Shown here in pieces: positions 12,086 through 24,775 of a stretch of 64,000 nucleotides of DNA. This DNA is from a virus, in IMG/VR virus record IMGVR_UViG_3300021389_000012, positions 1 through 64,000 of that record; one strand, 5' to 3'. The notes under the pieces are model-generated. The model was not told the origin of the DNA. It worked only from the letters and a program-made list of their open reading frames with translations, and did not search any database. Position numbers and translations under genes: made by a program. Position 1 is the first letter of the stretch. Each line of letters begins with the position of its first letter.

Positions 12086-12245
12086 TCATTATGGTGAAGA
12101 AATACAAACTGAATTAGAGATAAATGATCCTACGTATGTATTATTACACGCACCAAACACAATAAATGAATCAACTTTGGGTGTAGACACATTAGAGATG
12201 ATTAGGAAAACAATCAATGAGTGGGTTGAAGAAGAACAACGGTAA
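12078..12245 (+). CDS. Small hypothetical protein overlapping gp46 and the next gene
   Basis: A 55-residue ORF (MHNHYGEEIQTELEINDP..., ending INEWVEEEQR) starts inside the last codons of gp46 and ends 29 nt inside the GIY-YIG-like gene. It fills the otherwise unused 130-nt gap and is acidic. No Shine-Dalgarno is evident, so expression would rely on coupling to gp46 termination. No family is recognised. Confidence 0.5.
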   Translation: MHNHYGEEIQTELEINDPTYVLLHAPNTINESTLGVDTLEMIRKTINEWVEEEQR

Positions 12246-12669
12246 ATGTCCGTGGACTTACAACAATGAAGTTGTAGATGAACTTCCTGCTGACTGCGAA
12301 GGATTTGTTTATCTAATCACAAATACTACTAACAATAAGAAATACGTTGGTAAAAAACTAGCAAGATTTAAAACAACAAAGCCGCCTCTTAAAGGTAAAA
12401 AGAATAAAAGACGTGGAACAAAAGAAAGTGACTGGCAAACCTATTGGGGTTCATCAGATCATTTAAATGCAGACGTATTAACAATTGGCGAAGAAAACTT
12501 TACTAGAGAAATATTACATTATTGTCCTAGTAGAGGCGTACTAAGTTATATGGAAGCAAAAGAACAATTTGACCGTAGAGTATTAGAAACCGATGAATAC
12601 TACAACGGAATAATTAATGTAAGAGTAGGTAGTTCAAAGATTCTTACAGAACACTTAAAAAAAGGTTGA
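12217..12669 (+). CDS. GIY-YIG-like nuclease
   Basis: This 150-residue protein has a motif-1 pair resembling GIY-YIG: VYLITN (residues 31-36) and YVGKK (43-47), separated by the usual short turn (TTNNKK). A basic stretch follows (KPPLKGKKNKRRGTKESDWQTYWGSS). A glutamate (SYMEAKEQF) in the second half may be the metal ligand, and the end has EYYNGIINVR, also common in GIY-YIG enzymes. Similar proteins follow gp46 in marine T4-like phages. Immediately downstream is a non-coding region with ribozyme-like motifs. Start chosen at ATG 12217. Confidence 0.65.
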   Translation: MSGLKKNNGKCPWTYNNEVVDELPADCEGFVYLITNTTNNKKYVGKKLARFKTTKPPLKGKKNKRRGTKESDWQTYWGSSDHLNADVLTIGEENFTREILHYCPSRGVLSYMEAKEQFDRRVLETDEYYNGIINVRVGSSKILTEHLKKG

Positions 12670-13344: not shown

Positions 13345-13788
13345 ATGACGTTGGACGAATTTCAGAGTAAATTTTTAGAGTTTACTGAAAAGCAAGTTGA
13401 ACCCCTTAAAGATGACGGATATCCAGTATGTCCGTATGCAAAAAGTGCCAGAATTAAACGGGCGTTGCAGTTCATTGATGGTCGTGATGATTTAACAGTA
13501 ATGGATACTTTTGATCCTGAAACATATCAAATGGGTATTGTTTGGTTAGGTGATATTGATGATATTACTCCTGTAGAAAAAATTTGCGAGGAGTACAGAA
13601 AAAAGAATCCACATCTCTTATACTTTACTAGTACAAGACAAAGTGGACATTTTGTTAAAAACTTTACTGATTGTGTGTTTATTCAACGTGCTAACGACTT
13701 GTTAGAAAAACGCAAACACTTACATGATAATACAAACTATTACGATAGTTGGCCCGAAGATTATTATAAACTAATAATGGGTCACTGA
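13345..13788 (+). CDS. Conserved hypothetical protein
   Basis: This 147-residue soluble protein is not recognised. It is acidic to neutral and has a CPYAKSARIKRALQFI segment near the start, where YPVCPYAK is reminiscent of a thiol-containing active-site loop. A later region reads VWLGDIDDITPVEKICEEY. It ends YDSWPEDYYKLIMGH. It converges with the gp51-like ORF, and their 3' ends overlap by 7 nt. No Shine-Dalgarno stronger than GAGAGA precedes the ATG. Confidence 0.7.
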   Translation: MTLDEFQSKFLEFTEKQVEPLKDDGYPVCPYAKSARIKRALQFIDGRDDLTVMDTFDPETYQMGIVWLGDIDDITPVEKICEEYRKKNPHLLYFTSTRQSGHFVKNFTDCVFIQRANDLLEKRKHLHDNTNYYDSWPEDYYKLIMGH

Positions 13789-14054
13789 GTAGGACCCTTC
13801 CTCATATTATTAATTTCTTCAACACGTTTATTCATACGTTCAATTAACAGTCTTATACTGTCAACTGGCATTGTCATAATATCTTGATAATTGATAGAAC
13901 CTTCGCTACGAATCACTATATCTAAATAGCTAGCTTCTGTATCTTTTAGAATTTTATTATAACGTTCAATTAGCTCTACGATTTGCTCGGGCTGACGAGA
14001 AGCTATCAGCCCCCGAAAAAATTTGCAATATCTAAATCTACACCAGTTTTCCAA
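13782..14054 (-). CDS. gp51: gp51-like ORF, probably expressed as a -1 frameshift extension of gp26
   Basis: This 90-residue ORF overlaps the end of gp26 in the -1 frame. Its true coding part is probably the ~78 residues from position 14018 (RGLIASRQPEQIVELIERYNK to KRVEEINNMRKGPTQ), rich in helix. No ribosome binding site or second ATG lies near the gp26 stop, so independent initiation is doubtful. A slippery A-AAT-TTT-TTC (14024-14015) followed by a 7-bp GC-rich hairpin supports frameshifting, giving a gp26-gp51 fusion of about 351 residues. In T4, gp26 and gp51 are separate hub-assembly proteins; the gp51 equivalence is by position and size. Confidence 0.7.
   Translation of the reverse strand: MENWCRFRYCKFFRGLIASRQPEQIVELIERYNKILKDTEASYLDIVIRSEGSINYQDIMTMPVDSIRLLIERMNKRVEEINNMRKGPTQ
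13989..14024 (-). promoter_or_regulatory. Candidate programmed -1 frameshift site with stimulatory hairpin
   Basis: Read on the minus strand in the gp26 frame: A AAT TTT (14024-14018) overlaps T TTT TTC (14021-14015), and both fit X-XXY-YYZ. Five nucleotides after the first heptamer begins GGGCTGA (14012-14006), which pairs perfectly with TCAGCCC (13995-13989) across a 10-nt loop. The gp26 stop codon TGA is inside the stem. This geometry is that of bacterial -1 frameshift cassettes. Confidence 0.8.
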
Positions 14055-14836
14055 CTATGTCCACAATCTTGACAGTTAGCATTAAATTCAGTTTCTAATC
14101 CACTTTCACTTAATTCTTCTATCTTAGATTTGATTAGTTCATAATCTTTTTTAGTAATAGTTTGTAGCCATTCACGAATTGTTTCTTTGTCAGTAATCAA
14201 GTCAGTATCTTTGCCCTGAACACTTACAGTACTATTAGTAATTAAATCAACTGTAAGTTCTGCTATCTCAATAAATGTTTTTCCAAAAAGTTCCTGTTGC
14301 ATGGCCTCGTCAAGTTTTTGACTTGCTAATCCTTGTATCATTTTACTTTGTTTAATTTGCTGAATTTGAAGTATAGTTCTATCTTTTAACGTGTAAGGAT
14401 TACAAACAATTTTAAATTCACTTGGCAATGTTATACTTTTTTCGACAGGCTCTTTTTTAGCCTTTGATAACATTATGTTTGCATCTAACTGTAATTGATT
14501 TTCATATTCACATTTGGGACATTTAACATCCATTTCAATATGTTTACCATAGCTTGCTTGTCTAATCCCTACTAAGATTACAAGTAAATCACTTACTGGC
14601 ATTGATTCTGGATTTTCAATGTCAGGGCAACAACTTTTAATCAAACTTATTGTAGCTTCTCCGTTAAACAAAGCATCTGGTGTCTTAGTTATAAGTTCAT
14701 CCCTTGCTGTCATGGCATACACAGCTAGCTCGTTATCTATACTAAGTTTTGGCTTTGTTTCATAATATTCACCGTTACTTGGTAATGGAACATATAAAGC
14801 AGGCTTTCTGTATGCTTGAATTAATGGGTTTGTCAT
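14006..14836 (-). CDS. gp26: Baseplate hub subunit / tail assembly protein gp26
   Basis: This 276-residue protein matches the T4 gp26 family. The N-terminus reads YVPLPSNGEYYE...LSIDNELAVYAMTARDELITKTPDALFNG, followed by a zinc-ribbon CPKC (residues 106-109), a helical middle and a second CQDC (255-258) close to the C-terminus FFGG. It sits opposite two tape-measure-like genes, as tail-chaperone genes do in other tailed phages. It is transcribed leftward from a GATAAATAC promoter. Translation probably shifts frame at its last codons (see 13989-14024). Confidence 0.88.
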   Translation of the reverse strand: MTNPLIQAYRKPALYVPLPSNGEYYETKPKLSIDNELAVYAMTARDELITKTPDALFNGEATISLIKSCCPDIENPESMPVSDLLVILVGIRQASYGKHIEMDVKCPKCEYENQLQLDANIMLSKAKKEPVEKSITLPSEFKIVCNPYTLKDRTILQIQQIKQSKMIQGLASQKLDEAMQQELFGKTFIEIAELTVDLITNSTVSVQGKDTDLITDKETIREWLQTITKKDYELIKSKIEELSESGLETEFNANCQDCGHSWKTGVDLDIANFFGG

Positions 14837-14938: not shown

Positions 14939-16891
14939 ATGAACCAAGAAGATATCAATAACATATTAGCTAGTTTGCCACCCTGGGTAACTGAAACTAC
15001 ACTACAATCAGTGAGCTCCAGTATGTTCAAGCAAAATGTTAATATGTCTTCTGTAGCGGCAGTATTAAGCAAAAAAGATGCTGCTACAATCAGAGAGATG
15101 GTTGATGACGCTAAAAAAAGTGAGCAACAATCAGATAAACTAGGTGACGCATCAGTTAAAGCTGCACAAATAGCCAGTGGCGCAATGGGTAAAATTATGA
15201 GTAGCAGTCAGCCAGCTAATGCAGTTGCAGAACTTTCACATGAAGCAGCCAAACTATTAGCAAATGCAGGTATCGGGTTATCCAATATGGGAACAGGTCT
15301 TGGAAAATGGTCTAATATATTAAAAGGAATATCCAGGCATGCAGGTACTCCACTTGTAGTTGGTACAGGGTTAGGTGTATTATTTGCAGGAATGTTAACA
15401 GAGCAAACAAAACAAGCACAAAAATTAATTAGCTTTGGTGCCGTAGTTGCTGATACAGAACACTGGAACTACCTTAGACATGCTACTAGAGATTTAGGTA
15501 TGGGGTTAAAAGATTTTGAAGGTGTTATGCAAGAAGCTAAACCATTTATAGTACAAGCCGAAGGTAATGCATTTAATGGTGCATTAAAGTTAGCCGAATT
15601 TGCAAAAGCCGTTGATGCTGATAAAACATTTCGAGACTATGGTATGGGTTTACAAGACCAAACTAGAGTTATTGCACAAGAAATTGAAACATTATTTGAG
15701 TTAGGAGAAATTACTGAATTTAATAATAAAACTAAAGAACGTGTAATTAGATCATATGCTTCAGCAAATAAACTTGCAATGTTTACAGGTGATATCTTTG
15801 GTATGCAACGAGACGAAGCACTAAGACTTAGAGAAGAAGCAAGAAATAGTGTTGATCTAAGAGTGTCAGTAAAACAAAATGCACAGCATATCAATGACAC
15901 ATTTGGTGAACATGCATCAGAGTACATTGAACAAGCAGCTGGTATGGTTCATCCTATACTTACACAATTATTAGGAACAGACTTTGCAAATAAAATAAAA
16001 ACCATGCATGAGAGTTTTGTTGGTGATATTGAGTTTGATCAAACAGCAGCAAATGATATAACAGGAGAAATGGTAAAAACATTAGCACGTTCGCCAGATG
16101 CAACTCCGGCACTGATTAAACTTGTTGAACAAATGGGTACAGGACAATTAAAAAATGAAAAAGAAGTACTAGAGGCCATTAAACCTCTTATATCAGCAAT
16201 TTCGGATACTGCAATGTCAATAACTACTTCAGATCCAAATCTAGAAGAATTAAATCAGATAATAGCTAACTTAACAACTGCCGCAGGCTCTGAGGCTTTT
16301 TTACAATCAGATACAGATGTAATGTTGTCAAATTATTATGCTAATTTTGCCGATGCATCTGACACTAGCGTTGAAGTAATAAATAATTTAACAGTTGCAT
16401 TTCAAAACATGCAAGAATTATTAACACCAGGGTTTGATACATTATCTGGAGGATTTACTTTACTATCAGACGGTATGATGACATTTGGTAAAGCAATAAG
16501 TAAAGCGTTCAATGATGGTGATGATTCACATTTTAAATTAAATTTAAAAGAGTTTGAAGATAAAAGAATAGAAAAGCGTTTATCAATGGTAAACGAACAC
16601 AATATAGACTCTAACATAGAAATAGTTGACATGCAATTAAAAACGTTAAATGAACAGCTTAAACTAAATGAAGAGTTACAAAAGTCTGGAGTGACTCCAG
16701 AGGTTGTAGATGAAGAAACTGGCGAAGTAACTGGCGGCGTGGCTTTTGAAGAAGAAGATAAATTTATACTTAAACAACAAGCGTTGCAATTAAAAGAGTC
16801 TATTCTAGATACAACTGACTACCTGCAATTATTAAGAGATAAAGATGCAAAATTGGATGCTAAAAAGGAGGCGACAGTAGTAGATGGCTGA
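14939..16891 (+). CDS. Tape-measure-like virion protein, paralogue 1
   Basis: This 650-residue, mostly helical protein has a hydrophobic segment at about 137-157 (PLVVGTGLGVLFAGML), as in tape measure proteins. It opens with ASLPPWVTETTLQSV, matched by VPAWATESTLEAL at the same place in the next gene, and both continue with KLL/AAVLSKK-type helices, so the two are tandem paralogues. The C-terminal ~130 residues are charged and coiled-coil-like. Position next to gp26 and length close to T4 gp29 (590) support a tape-measure or central-hub role. No enzymatic domain is seen. The ribosome binding site is AATAGGAATA. Confidence 0.6.
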   Translation: MNQEDINNILASLPPWVTETTLQSVSSSMFKQNVNMSSVAAVLSKKDAATIREMVDDAKKSEQQSDKLGDASVKAAQIASGAMGKIMSSSQPANAVAELSHEAAKLLANAGIGLSNMGTGLGKWSNILKGISRHAGTPLVVGTGLGVLFAGMLTEQTKQAQKLISFGAVVADTEHWNYLRHATRDLGMGLKDFEGVMQEAKPFIVQAEGNAFNGALKLAEFAKAVDADKTFRDYGMGLQDQTRVIAQEIETLFELGEITEFNNKTKERVIRSYASANKLAMFTGDIFGMQRDEALRLREEARNSVDLRVSVKQNAQHINDTFGEHASEYIEQAAGMVHPILTQLLGTDFANKIKTMHESFVGDIEFDQTAANDITGEMVKTLARSPDATPALIKLVEQMGTGQLKNEKEVLEAIKPLISAISDTAMSITTSDPNLEELNQIIANLTTAAGSEAFLQSDTDVMLSNYYANFADASDTSVEVINNLTVAFQNMQELLTPGFDTLSGGFTLLSDGMMTFGKAISKAFNDGDDSHFKLNLKEFEDKRIEKRLSMVNEHNIDSNIEIVDMQLKTLNEQLKLNEELQKSGVTPEVVDEETGEVTGGVAFEEEDKFILKQQALQLKESILDTTDYLQLLRDKDAKLDAKKEATVVDG

Positions 16892-18863
16892 TAAAACATA
16901 TAATCTCCCAATAGGAGACGGAGCTATTGAAGTTCCTGCATGGGCAACCGAATCAACATTAGAAGCATTAGCTAATCAATCTTCTTCTTCAGTACGTCTC
17001 ACTTCTAAACTTCTAAACACGGTTACAAAGAATGGTAAACTAGATGATGATATTATTGAAGCAGTTAAAACAAATACACAAATTGGAGTAACCAATGCTA
17101 AAGCAAACAGCGAAGAAGCAAGTCATAGATCAAGTCTGCTATTAAAAGGAGCTCAAACAGTTAGAGATACTGCTGGTTTCTTTGGTGATTCAGAAAAACC
17201 ATTATCAAGTATGGTATCGGCTGCAGAAAAAGTAGTAGGCAGTTTAAAAGGAACAGACGGTAAACTTAGCAAAGCATCTAAAAATCTAATAGCAGGCGAC
17301 AGTGCAACAAGCGAAGTTTGGAAAAAAATTGGTGGTGTTGCAGTAGATATTGGTTTTGCATGGGCAGGTTGGAACGCAGCTAAGTTTGAACAATTTGCTG
17401 AAGTTCAAAAAAGTATGATAAACAGTGGTGCTATTGTGTTTGAAACAGCTGACGCATTTGATGAATTATATACTGATGCATTTAAGTCAGGAATAACATA
17501 TAAAACATTTGCAGATGTAGTTGCTAACTTTGGTGGAACAATGGTTGGGCTAGGTGGAAACGTGTCAGTGGGTTCTCAAAACATGATGAAGTTATTTAAA
17601 AGATTGGAAGTTAATGCTGATGAATTTGGAGACTTTGGACTAACAAATAAAGAATTATTAAACACATACGCTCAGTATATTGAAACACAACGTTTGACAG
17701 GTTCCCTAGATAGAAAACTAGCTGATGGCGGAGAATTACTTGAAGCAGGATATAAGGAATTAATGGTTGAATCAACTGCACTAGCTAGCCTATCAGCTTT
17801 AGATAGAAGCGATATCTTTCAGAAACAAATGTCTGCGTTGAGTGATGTATCTTTAGCAGCAGGTACATCTAAATTAGAAGATCAAGGATTACAAGATACA
17901 TCTAAGGTTGCTAAGGAACTAGTTAAACAATTAGCAGTTCTTGATGGTATTGGACCCTCTGATTTTGTAGGCCAGCTTACCCAAGGAATTAGCAGAGGTA
18001 TTGCTCAGTATAGTGAGAATCCGGAAAATTTTGATATTAGACAAATTATATCTGGAATGGATGGTAAATTAGTAGGGCAATTAGAATACATTATGCCGGG
18101 CTTGTTTGACACAATTAATAGTTCAATAATAAATGCAGAAGAAACTAATGGAGAAATATCAGAAACCTTAATATTAGATGCGGTACGAGACTTTAATCAA
18201 AAAAGGTTAGTAGCAGTTCAGGCAGCAGGTACTGATATGGGTAATATACAAGATATACAAGATACTTCTTTTCTAATATTAGAAATGTTTGGTAGTGTAA
18301 CAAGTGAAGCCTATTTACAAGCCAAAAAAGATGGTAAAAAGCACCTTGATGCAAGTGGAGAAGGAGTAGAGGCAATAAACGATTTGTCAAAAATGTTCTT
18401 AACAGCACAAGAATTCATTACATTGCCAATGCAAGATTTTGGAGAAAAAATGGATTTTGTATCAGGATTATTAGGCGATGGCGCAGGTTTTTTAAGTAAC
18501 TTATTTAATGATTATACAGGCGAAAACGATGCTAAAGCAGTTGGTGAAAGAGTCGTAGAACAGGTTACAGAACCCTTTAAAAACAATTATACTGGTGTTT
18601 CAGACGAAAGACAGGCAGAAATAACTAACGCAACAATGCCACAATTAGTACAATGGTTGACAGATAACGAAAAGAATGCTAAAATAATAGAAAATGAATC
18701 ACATCCTCATAGTAAAATAGCCCGTAAAGAAATTGGGATATTAAACAGAGAAAATGATTTGATAGAAGCACAAGTGAAAACATTAGAAGAACAAGTAAGG
18801 ATAAAACAAAATATTCAGAATGCCGAAGAAGCAAAAATACTAGATGATTTAGTAAATGGTTAA
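16884..18863 (+). CDS. Tape-measure-like virion protein, paralogue 2
   Basis: This 659-residue protein overlaps the previous gene by 8 nt (ATGGCTGA). An AAGGAGGCG Shine-Dalgarno inside the upstream coding region marks the start. It shares the N-terminal PAWATESTLEALANQSSSSVRL motif pattern with paralogue 1. A glycine/alanine hydrophobic stretch lies near 145-170 (IGGVAVDIGFAWAGWNAAKF), followed by long helices and a charged C-terminal coiled coil (EIGILNRENDLIEAQVKTLEEQV). One of the pair is likely the tail length ruler; which one is unclear. Confidence 0.58.
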   Translation: MADKTYNLPIGDGAIEVPAWATESTLEALANQSSSSVRLTSKLLNTVTKNGKLDDDIIEAVKTNTQIGVTNAKANSEEASHRSSLLLKGAQTVRDTAGFFGDSEKPLSSMVSAAEKVVGSLKGTDGKLSKASKNLIAGDSATSEVWKKIGGVAVDIGFAWAGWNAAKFEQFAEVQKSMINSGAIVFETADAFDELYTDAFKSGITYKTFADVVANFGGTMVGLGGNVSVGSQNMMKLFKRLEVNADEFGDFGLTNKELLNTYAQYIETQRLTGSLDRKLADGGELLEAGYKELMVESTALASLSALDRSDIFQKQMSALSDVSLAAGTSKLEDQGLQDTSKVAKELVKQLAVLDGIGPSDFVGQLTQGISRGIAQYSENPENFDIRQIISGMDGKLVGQLEYIMPGLFDTINSSIINAEETNGEISETLILDAVRDFNQKRLVAVQAAGTDMGNIQDIQDTSFLILEMFGSVTSEAYLQAKKDGKKHLDASGEGVEAINDLSKMFLTAQEFITLPMQDFGEKMDFVSGLLGDGAGFLSNLFNDYTGENDAKAVGERVVEQVTEPFKNNYTGVSDERQAEITNATMPQLVQWLTDNEKNAKIIENESHPHSKIARKEIGILNRENDLIEAQVKTLEEQVRIKQNIQNAEEAKILDDLVNG

Positions 18864-24720: not shown

Positions 24721-24725
24721 CACTC

Positions 24726-24775
24726 ACGTTCATCCTATTATAGGACGGAAGTAGCAATAGCGAAGGAACGCACTT
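24726..24775 (+). promoter_or_regulatory. Glutamine riboswitch (glnA / Downstream-peptide motif family)
   Basis: The sequence has the complete layout of this aptamer class. P1 pairs CGTTC (24727-24731) with GAACG (24766-24770). A perfect TCCTAT/ATAGGA hairpin follows, then the invariant core CGGAAGTAG (24745-24753), a short GC/GC stem, and CGAAGGAACGCAC. Downstream-peptide RNAs are known from cyanobacteria, their phages and marine metagenomes, typically upstream of short ORFs. Here a 50-codon ORF with a strong ribosome binding site begins 22 nt later. It would sense L-glutamine, a nitrogen-status signal. Recognised from memory of the consensus, not by a covariance search. Confidence 0.85.

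Follow-up and report, generated by a model that had tools for sequence, protein, structure and literature searches.

In the 64,000-nucleotide stretch of viral DNA analysed here (the window), a single gene of the gp26 family would give rise to two proteins, a short form, TAC-N, and a long form, TAC-NC, by a -1 slip of the ribosome on the heptamer T_TTT_TTC; we put the probability of this reading at roughly 93%, on comparative sequence evidence. The majority of ribosomes would terminate at the gp26 stop codon and produce the short form, the counterpart of T4 gp26. A minority would slip on T_TTT_TTC, and perhaps on the overlapping heptamer A_AAT_TTT too, probably aided in the marine clade by a downstream hairpin, and would read 77 further codons to make the long form, the counterpart of T4 gp51. 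If the system works as lambda gpG/gpGT does, a large number of short-form and a small number of long-form molecules may then cover the tape measure protein and bring tube subunits to it.

The short form is encoded on the minus strand by an ORF of 276 aa (14006..14836), taken from the list of open reading frames and assigned through Pfam PF12322, T4_baseplate (70.3 bits, cut-off 24.5), and PHROG 150, baseplate hub (4.9e-22). At its end, the zero frame of the minus strand reads GAT ATT GCA AAT TTT TTC GGG GGC TGA. This string holds the slippery heptamer T_TTT_TTC (14015..14021, minus strand) and, overlapping it upstream, A_AAT_TTT (14018..14024, minus strand), both of which the earlier note had placed correctly at 14024-14015; a slip on either would yield an identical protein. 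The -1 frame opens with CGG (14015) and closes with a stop codon at 13784-13782, and this extension, TAC-C (13782..14015, minus strand), consists of 77 codons plus stop and, according to hhalign, is a homologue of the T4 gp51 C-terminus. The predicted frameshift product, TAC-NC (13782..14836, minus strand), identified as the T4 gp51 counterpart by hhalign against the gp51 family, would comprise 274+77 = 351 aa, with the predicted junction-spanning peptide ..DIANFFRGLIASR..; the computed lengths of 276 and 351 aa agree with the 276-residue protein and ~351-residue fusion expected beforehand. The downstream ORF lies exactly in the -1 frame and, as had been noticed, has no start near the junction: ATG, GTG and TTG are absent from the first 15 post-slip codons in the window, and the listed start of the ORF, TTG at 14054, lies upstream of the junction. 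The short ORF is hence overlapped by a -1 frame that has no start of its own, a feature that defines membership in this type of locus.

Evidence from the single sequence is unremarkable, and the comparative evidence is decisive. TTTTTTC is not enriched in the window (26 observed vs 28.7 expected), and the folding of the hairpin, evaluated on the window sequence alone against shuffles, reaches z = -1.31. Among 45 gene ends in the window, that of gp26 alone combines an in-phase heptamer near the stop with at least 40 open codons in the -1 frame. An in-phase heptamer is also found at the 3' end of a 150-aa ORF (12217-12669, plus strand), which by eye resembles a GIY-YIG endonuclease (VYLIT...KYVGKK); there, the -1 frame meets a stop after 15 codons.

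Across relatives, the heptamer is in phase and, beyond the gp26 stop, at least 45 further codons of the -1 frame are open at all 152 evaluable IMG/VR loci (152/152), as compared with only 2 of 152 for the +1 frame. Loci L015-L021 recur within L034-L083, and the figure of 152 is given without the separate earlier set; because many of these loci are near-identical, the 119 distinct junctions are the better count. Jumbo-phage relatives of gp26 were found by tblastn, and in 12 of 12 jumbo-type phages, including Salicola SCTP-2, Sinorhizobium Phosso, Agrobacterium Atu_ph07, 121Q, RaK2, GAP32 and XacN1, gp26 ends with NNT TTT TT[C/T] and the -1 frame continues for 69-80 codons. The shift site and an open -1 frame occur in seven other named phages (the cyanophages Sf-FS3 and S-SM2, Pseudomonas pf16, Aeromonas Aeh1, a KVP40-like Vibrio phage, OLIVR5 and IC12), so that T_TTT_TT[C/T] is in phase in 19 named phages overall in addition to the IMG/VR loci. 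A programmed -1 frameshift of the lambda G/GT kind joining gp26 to the downstream ORF, as originally proposed, is thus well supported by the conservation of heptamer and frame at 152 of 152 loci. That the ORF is truly continuous and is interrupted here by gene decay or by a mistake in sequencing or assembly has a negligible probability: homopolymer runs are indeed error-prone and T4 gp51 is continuous, but the frame relation is identical in finished genomes of isolates and across 119 distinct junctions drawn from many data sets, and the extension is conserved at the protein level, so that conservation already refutes this explanation.

The choice of codons at the site is constrained as well. 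The codon preceding TTT TTC varies (AAT, AGT, GGT, CAT, CGT, TCT) but has T as its last base in every case; the second Phe codon is TTC at 151 of 152 loci, though TTT makes up 71-79% of the Phe codons in those genes; the heptamer accordingly has the form TTTTTTC at 151 of the 152 IMG/VR loci and TTTTTTT at one. Constraint on the T-ending codon together with the choice of TTC indicates that selection acts on the nucleotide string and not on the protein only, and these comparisons constitute direct evidence, at the level of sequence, for selection on the slippery string itself. Of the two heptamers proposed in the earlier note, T_TTT_TTC thereby proved universal; A_AAT_TTT, considered as the main shift site, was rejected, being conserved mainly in the marine clade, where most of the relatives carry it, and absent from most other groups. 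At loci L078-L080, gcaAAT is changed to gcgGGT, which turns A_AAT_TTT into G_GGT_TTT, also a canonical heptamer. In the Ackermannviridae (Mutine; L028:3280-3320), a conserved -1 ORF follows gp26 at the site ATT TTC ATT TAA, which lacks a canonical heptamer, and PF12322 is present in a single copy.

The -1 ORF might instead be a separate small gene, translated from its own start or by termination-reinitiation, with no fusion being made. It is annotated in this way in Sf-FS3, S-SM2, OLIVR5 and EniLVp02, the cyanophage label being 'baseplate hub assembly catalyst', and an ATG occurs within the first 15 extension codons at 77 of 77 cyanophage loci. In the marine clade and its nearest outgroup, however, neither an ATG within these first 15 codons nor an SD-like start was found (0/62 loci); moreover, a separate gene would not need a conserved heptamer and codon choice, and T4 gp51 is one continuous protein across the junction. 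We regard independent translation as very improbable, and the same holds for slippage of RNA polymerase on the T6 run, by which one U would be added and the long form translated from the edited mRNA. A six-T run is present at every site, and there are other genes in which polymerase is known to slip on homopolymers (PMC5009743), but selection for such slippage should lengthen the run, which is held at TTTTTTC in 151 of 152 cases and reads TTTTTTT only once, and both the conserved X_XXY_YYZ phasing and the covariation of the RNA hairpin are hallmarks of a ribosomal shift.

For the ribosomal slip, this hairpin (13989..14012, minus strand) is a putative stimulator, identified by folding and by covariation in 27 distinct marine sequences. 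Its stem pairs GGGCTGA (14012-14006) with TCAGCCC (13995-13989) over 7 bp, with a 10-nt loop, and the gp26 stop codon TGA (14008-14006) sits inside the 5' arm; the sequence confirmed this description, including the distance of 5 nt from the first heptamer. The hairpin begins 5 nt past A_AAT_TTT, a typical spacing, and 2 nt past T_TTT_TTC, which is short for a stimulator. Of the hairpin cells in these 27 sequences, 95.8% are paired, a value that falls to 13-50% if the partner columns are shifted by 1-3 positions. In the marine set, pair 15/32 is U-A in 14, C-G in 9 and U-G in 4 sequences, never C-A, and pair 12/35 covaries between G-C and A-U; for 28 distinct sequences, the Fisher test gives p 1.5e-4, a value that ignores relatedness. 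The changes in columns 15/32 exchange CTG/TTG (Leu) and CAG/CAA (Gln), which leaves the protein of the -1 frame unchanged; the CTG/TTG change is synonymous in the zero frame also. Because the stem covaries through synonymous changes, the hairpin is likely a real RNA structure in the marine clade.

As a general stimulator, the hairpin was rejected: the window-type stem is confined to the marine clade, many shift sites in the comparison set have no obvious hairpin, and inspection of the jumbo phages by eye revealed no common stem at this position. Alignment of the junction in relatives, which had been suggested as a check, therefore upheld heptamer and frame at all evaluable loci and the stem within the marine clade only. 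Many cyanophage junctions (L097-L176) carry a hairpin of 5 bp with a 4-nt loop, approximately 10 nt past T_TTT_TTC, the arms of which change together (GGTCC-ATAT-GGACC, GATCC..GGATC, GGTTC..GAACC); several loci are without it. A tentative possibility, which we hold somewhat less probable than even, is that the marine clade has put a control of its own on an old site, tuning how much long chaperone is made relative to short by two-site slippage with the covarying hairpin and the extra overlapping heptamer, and that cyanophages evolved a different hairpin at this place.

The relation of the two forms to T4 proteins emerges from profile comparisons. T4 gp26 and gp51 are paralogues (profile probability 99.3%), and the short forms match T4 gp26 with 99.1%. 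All fusions taken together match the gp51 family with 98.6% (hhalign, E 1.1e-15, 229 columns), and cyanophage-type fusions do so with 99.5% (E 4e-23) in an alignment that crosses the junction unbroken. The extensions reach 92.8-96.8% against the gp51 C-terminus in sets with cyanophage-type members (hhalign), as opposed to just 0.2-1.4% against gp26. The jumbo/marine set alone is weaker against gp51 (fusion 91%, extension 74.5%), and its link to gp51 runs via the cyanophage-type proteins. PF12322 is present once in the window's 76.5-kb record and in every frameshifting genome that gave a match, vs two copies in T4 and two in Stupor. These matches, together with the copy-number contrast, indicate that the -1 ORF represents the C-terminal domain of gp51 only. 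By these profile comparisons, the short form corresponds to gp26, to which it is homologous, and the long form, along its entire length, to gp51. The earlier note had called the downstream ORF gp51-like and equated it with T4 gp51 in position, an equation that does not hold: it is the whole fusion that matches gp51, the extension aligning with only the last ~50 residues, and T4 gene 51 is a separate gene of 249 aa, transcribed divergently from gene 26. In T4, the equivalent two proteins come from two divergent paralogous genes with no frameshift, whereas here one gene with a -1 site would suffice; since the window's record contains no separate long-form gene, the fusion is a counterpart of gp51 and not gene 51 itself.

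Both gp26 and gp51 of T4 have been classed as hub assembly chaperones, and gp51 has been described as an essential hub assembly protein of long unknown function (PMC3004832); in one Acinetobacter phage record, gp26 and gp51 are named tape measure protein assembly chaperones. In lambda, the short form coats the tape measure and the long form recruits tube subunits (PMC5009743). The locus resembles lambda gpG/gpGT, P2 E/E' and HK97 gp13/gp14 in that a short ORF has a -1 slippery site near its 3' end and a C-terminal extension; it differs from them in that no sequence similarity was found, and the window protein is larger and contains two CxxC pairs. The AlphaFold model of the window gp26 (pLDDT 82.8) has as its best VIA-align match in the PDB the HK97 tail assembly chaperone 2ob9, which spans 101 of 107 residues at an rmsd of 5.0 and a Z of 6.5 (<8). 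This match is suggestive of a shared fold, with Z below the secure level. Foldseek of the gp26 model against the PDB yielded no match at E <= 0.001, and a sequence search of solved structures with the gp51 or the cyanophage-type gp26 profile found nothing.

In lambda, P2 and HK97, the large ORF beside the chaperone genes is located downstream, whereas that beside the window gp26 is divergent: an ORF of 650 aa (14939..16891, plus strand), a conserved gp26 neighbour and tape measure candidate, is followed by a second large ORF and then the portal gene. The two large ORFs (650 and 659 aa) occupy 14939-18863 (plus strand) between gp26 and the portal gene, and neither has a PHROG match at E <= 0.001. 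Jumbo phages, too, have the 650-aa ORF next to gp26 (hhalign 96.7% for marine vs jumbo neighbours). Its identification as a T4 gp29 homologue was rejected, no similarity being detectable by hhalign; the earlier note's description of the genes lying opposite as tape-measure-like finds no support in similarity to gp29, and the ORF is a conserved companion of gp26. On the same strand, no tape measure gene follows 3' of the gp26 locus. Farther along the window, a glutamine riboswitch aptamer (RF01739, 55.1 bits) is located at 24725-24774 (plus strand), directly after the major head protein gene.

Frameshifting is reportedly conserved in several T4-like groups, the T4 group having separate genes, according to the abstract of Vladimirov and colleagues. 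To the extent that citing papers describe that work, T4-like phages have short and long TAC genes, some groups using polyT -1 sites and others a separate gene for each form (Vladimirov, Gautam and Davidson, Virology 2022, 566:9-15; via PMC10885494, PMC12846349). The PRFect summary of the study has some T4-like phages carrying a short gene plus a long fusion gene instead of frameshifting, and the Adele paper (PMC12846349) cites it for polyT -1 signals in T4-like TAC-N genes. The earlier note's statement that it knew of no description for T4-type gp26/gp51 does not stand, the 2022 study having already identified the T4-like TACs. As the frameshift type was already described then, and with it, as cited, the gp26/gp51 counterpart, the window locus, which fits the frameshifting class, is a further example and not a new mechanism. 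It differs from the T4-like TACs of that study, as far as they are described by the citing papers, in the extra overlapping heptamer and the covarying hairpin of the marine clade. The TAC of Pakpunavirus Adele and the Vandenendeviridae also has a conserved -1 frame and a polyT motif (GTTTTT) at the TAC-N end (PMC12846349); these belong to a different phage group, and the likeness lies in motif and frame. The present analysis contributes a broader set of loci, the contrast in copy number and the covarying hairpin, of which the clade-specific hairpin is the main addition; in the literature searched, no description was found of the putative combination of covarying hairpin and doubled heptamer in the marine clade.

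In jumbo, marine and cyanobacterial T4-like phages, one frameshifting gene, represented by more than 100 distinct junctions, would thus do the job of T4 genes 26 and 51. Genes that carry the 'gp51' label in cyanophage annotations probably encode just the C-terminal end of a larger protein, and gp51 gains a concrete meaning as the counterpart of the long-form chaperone.
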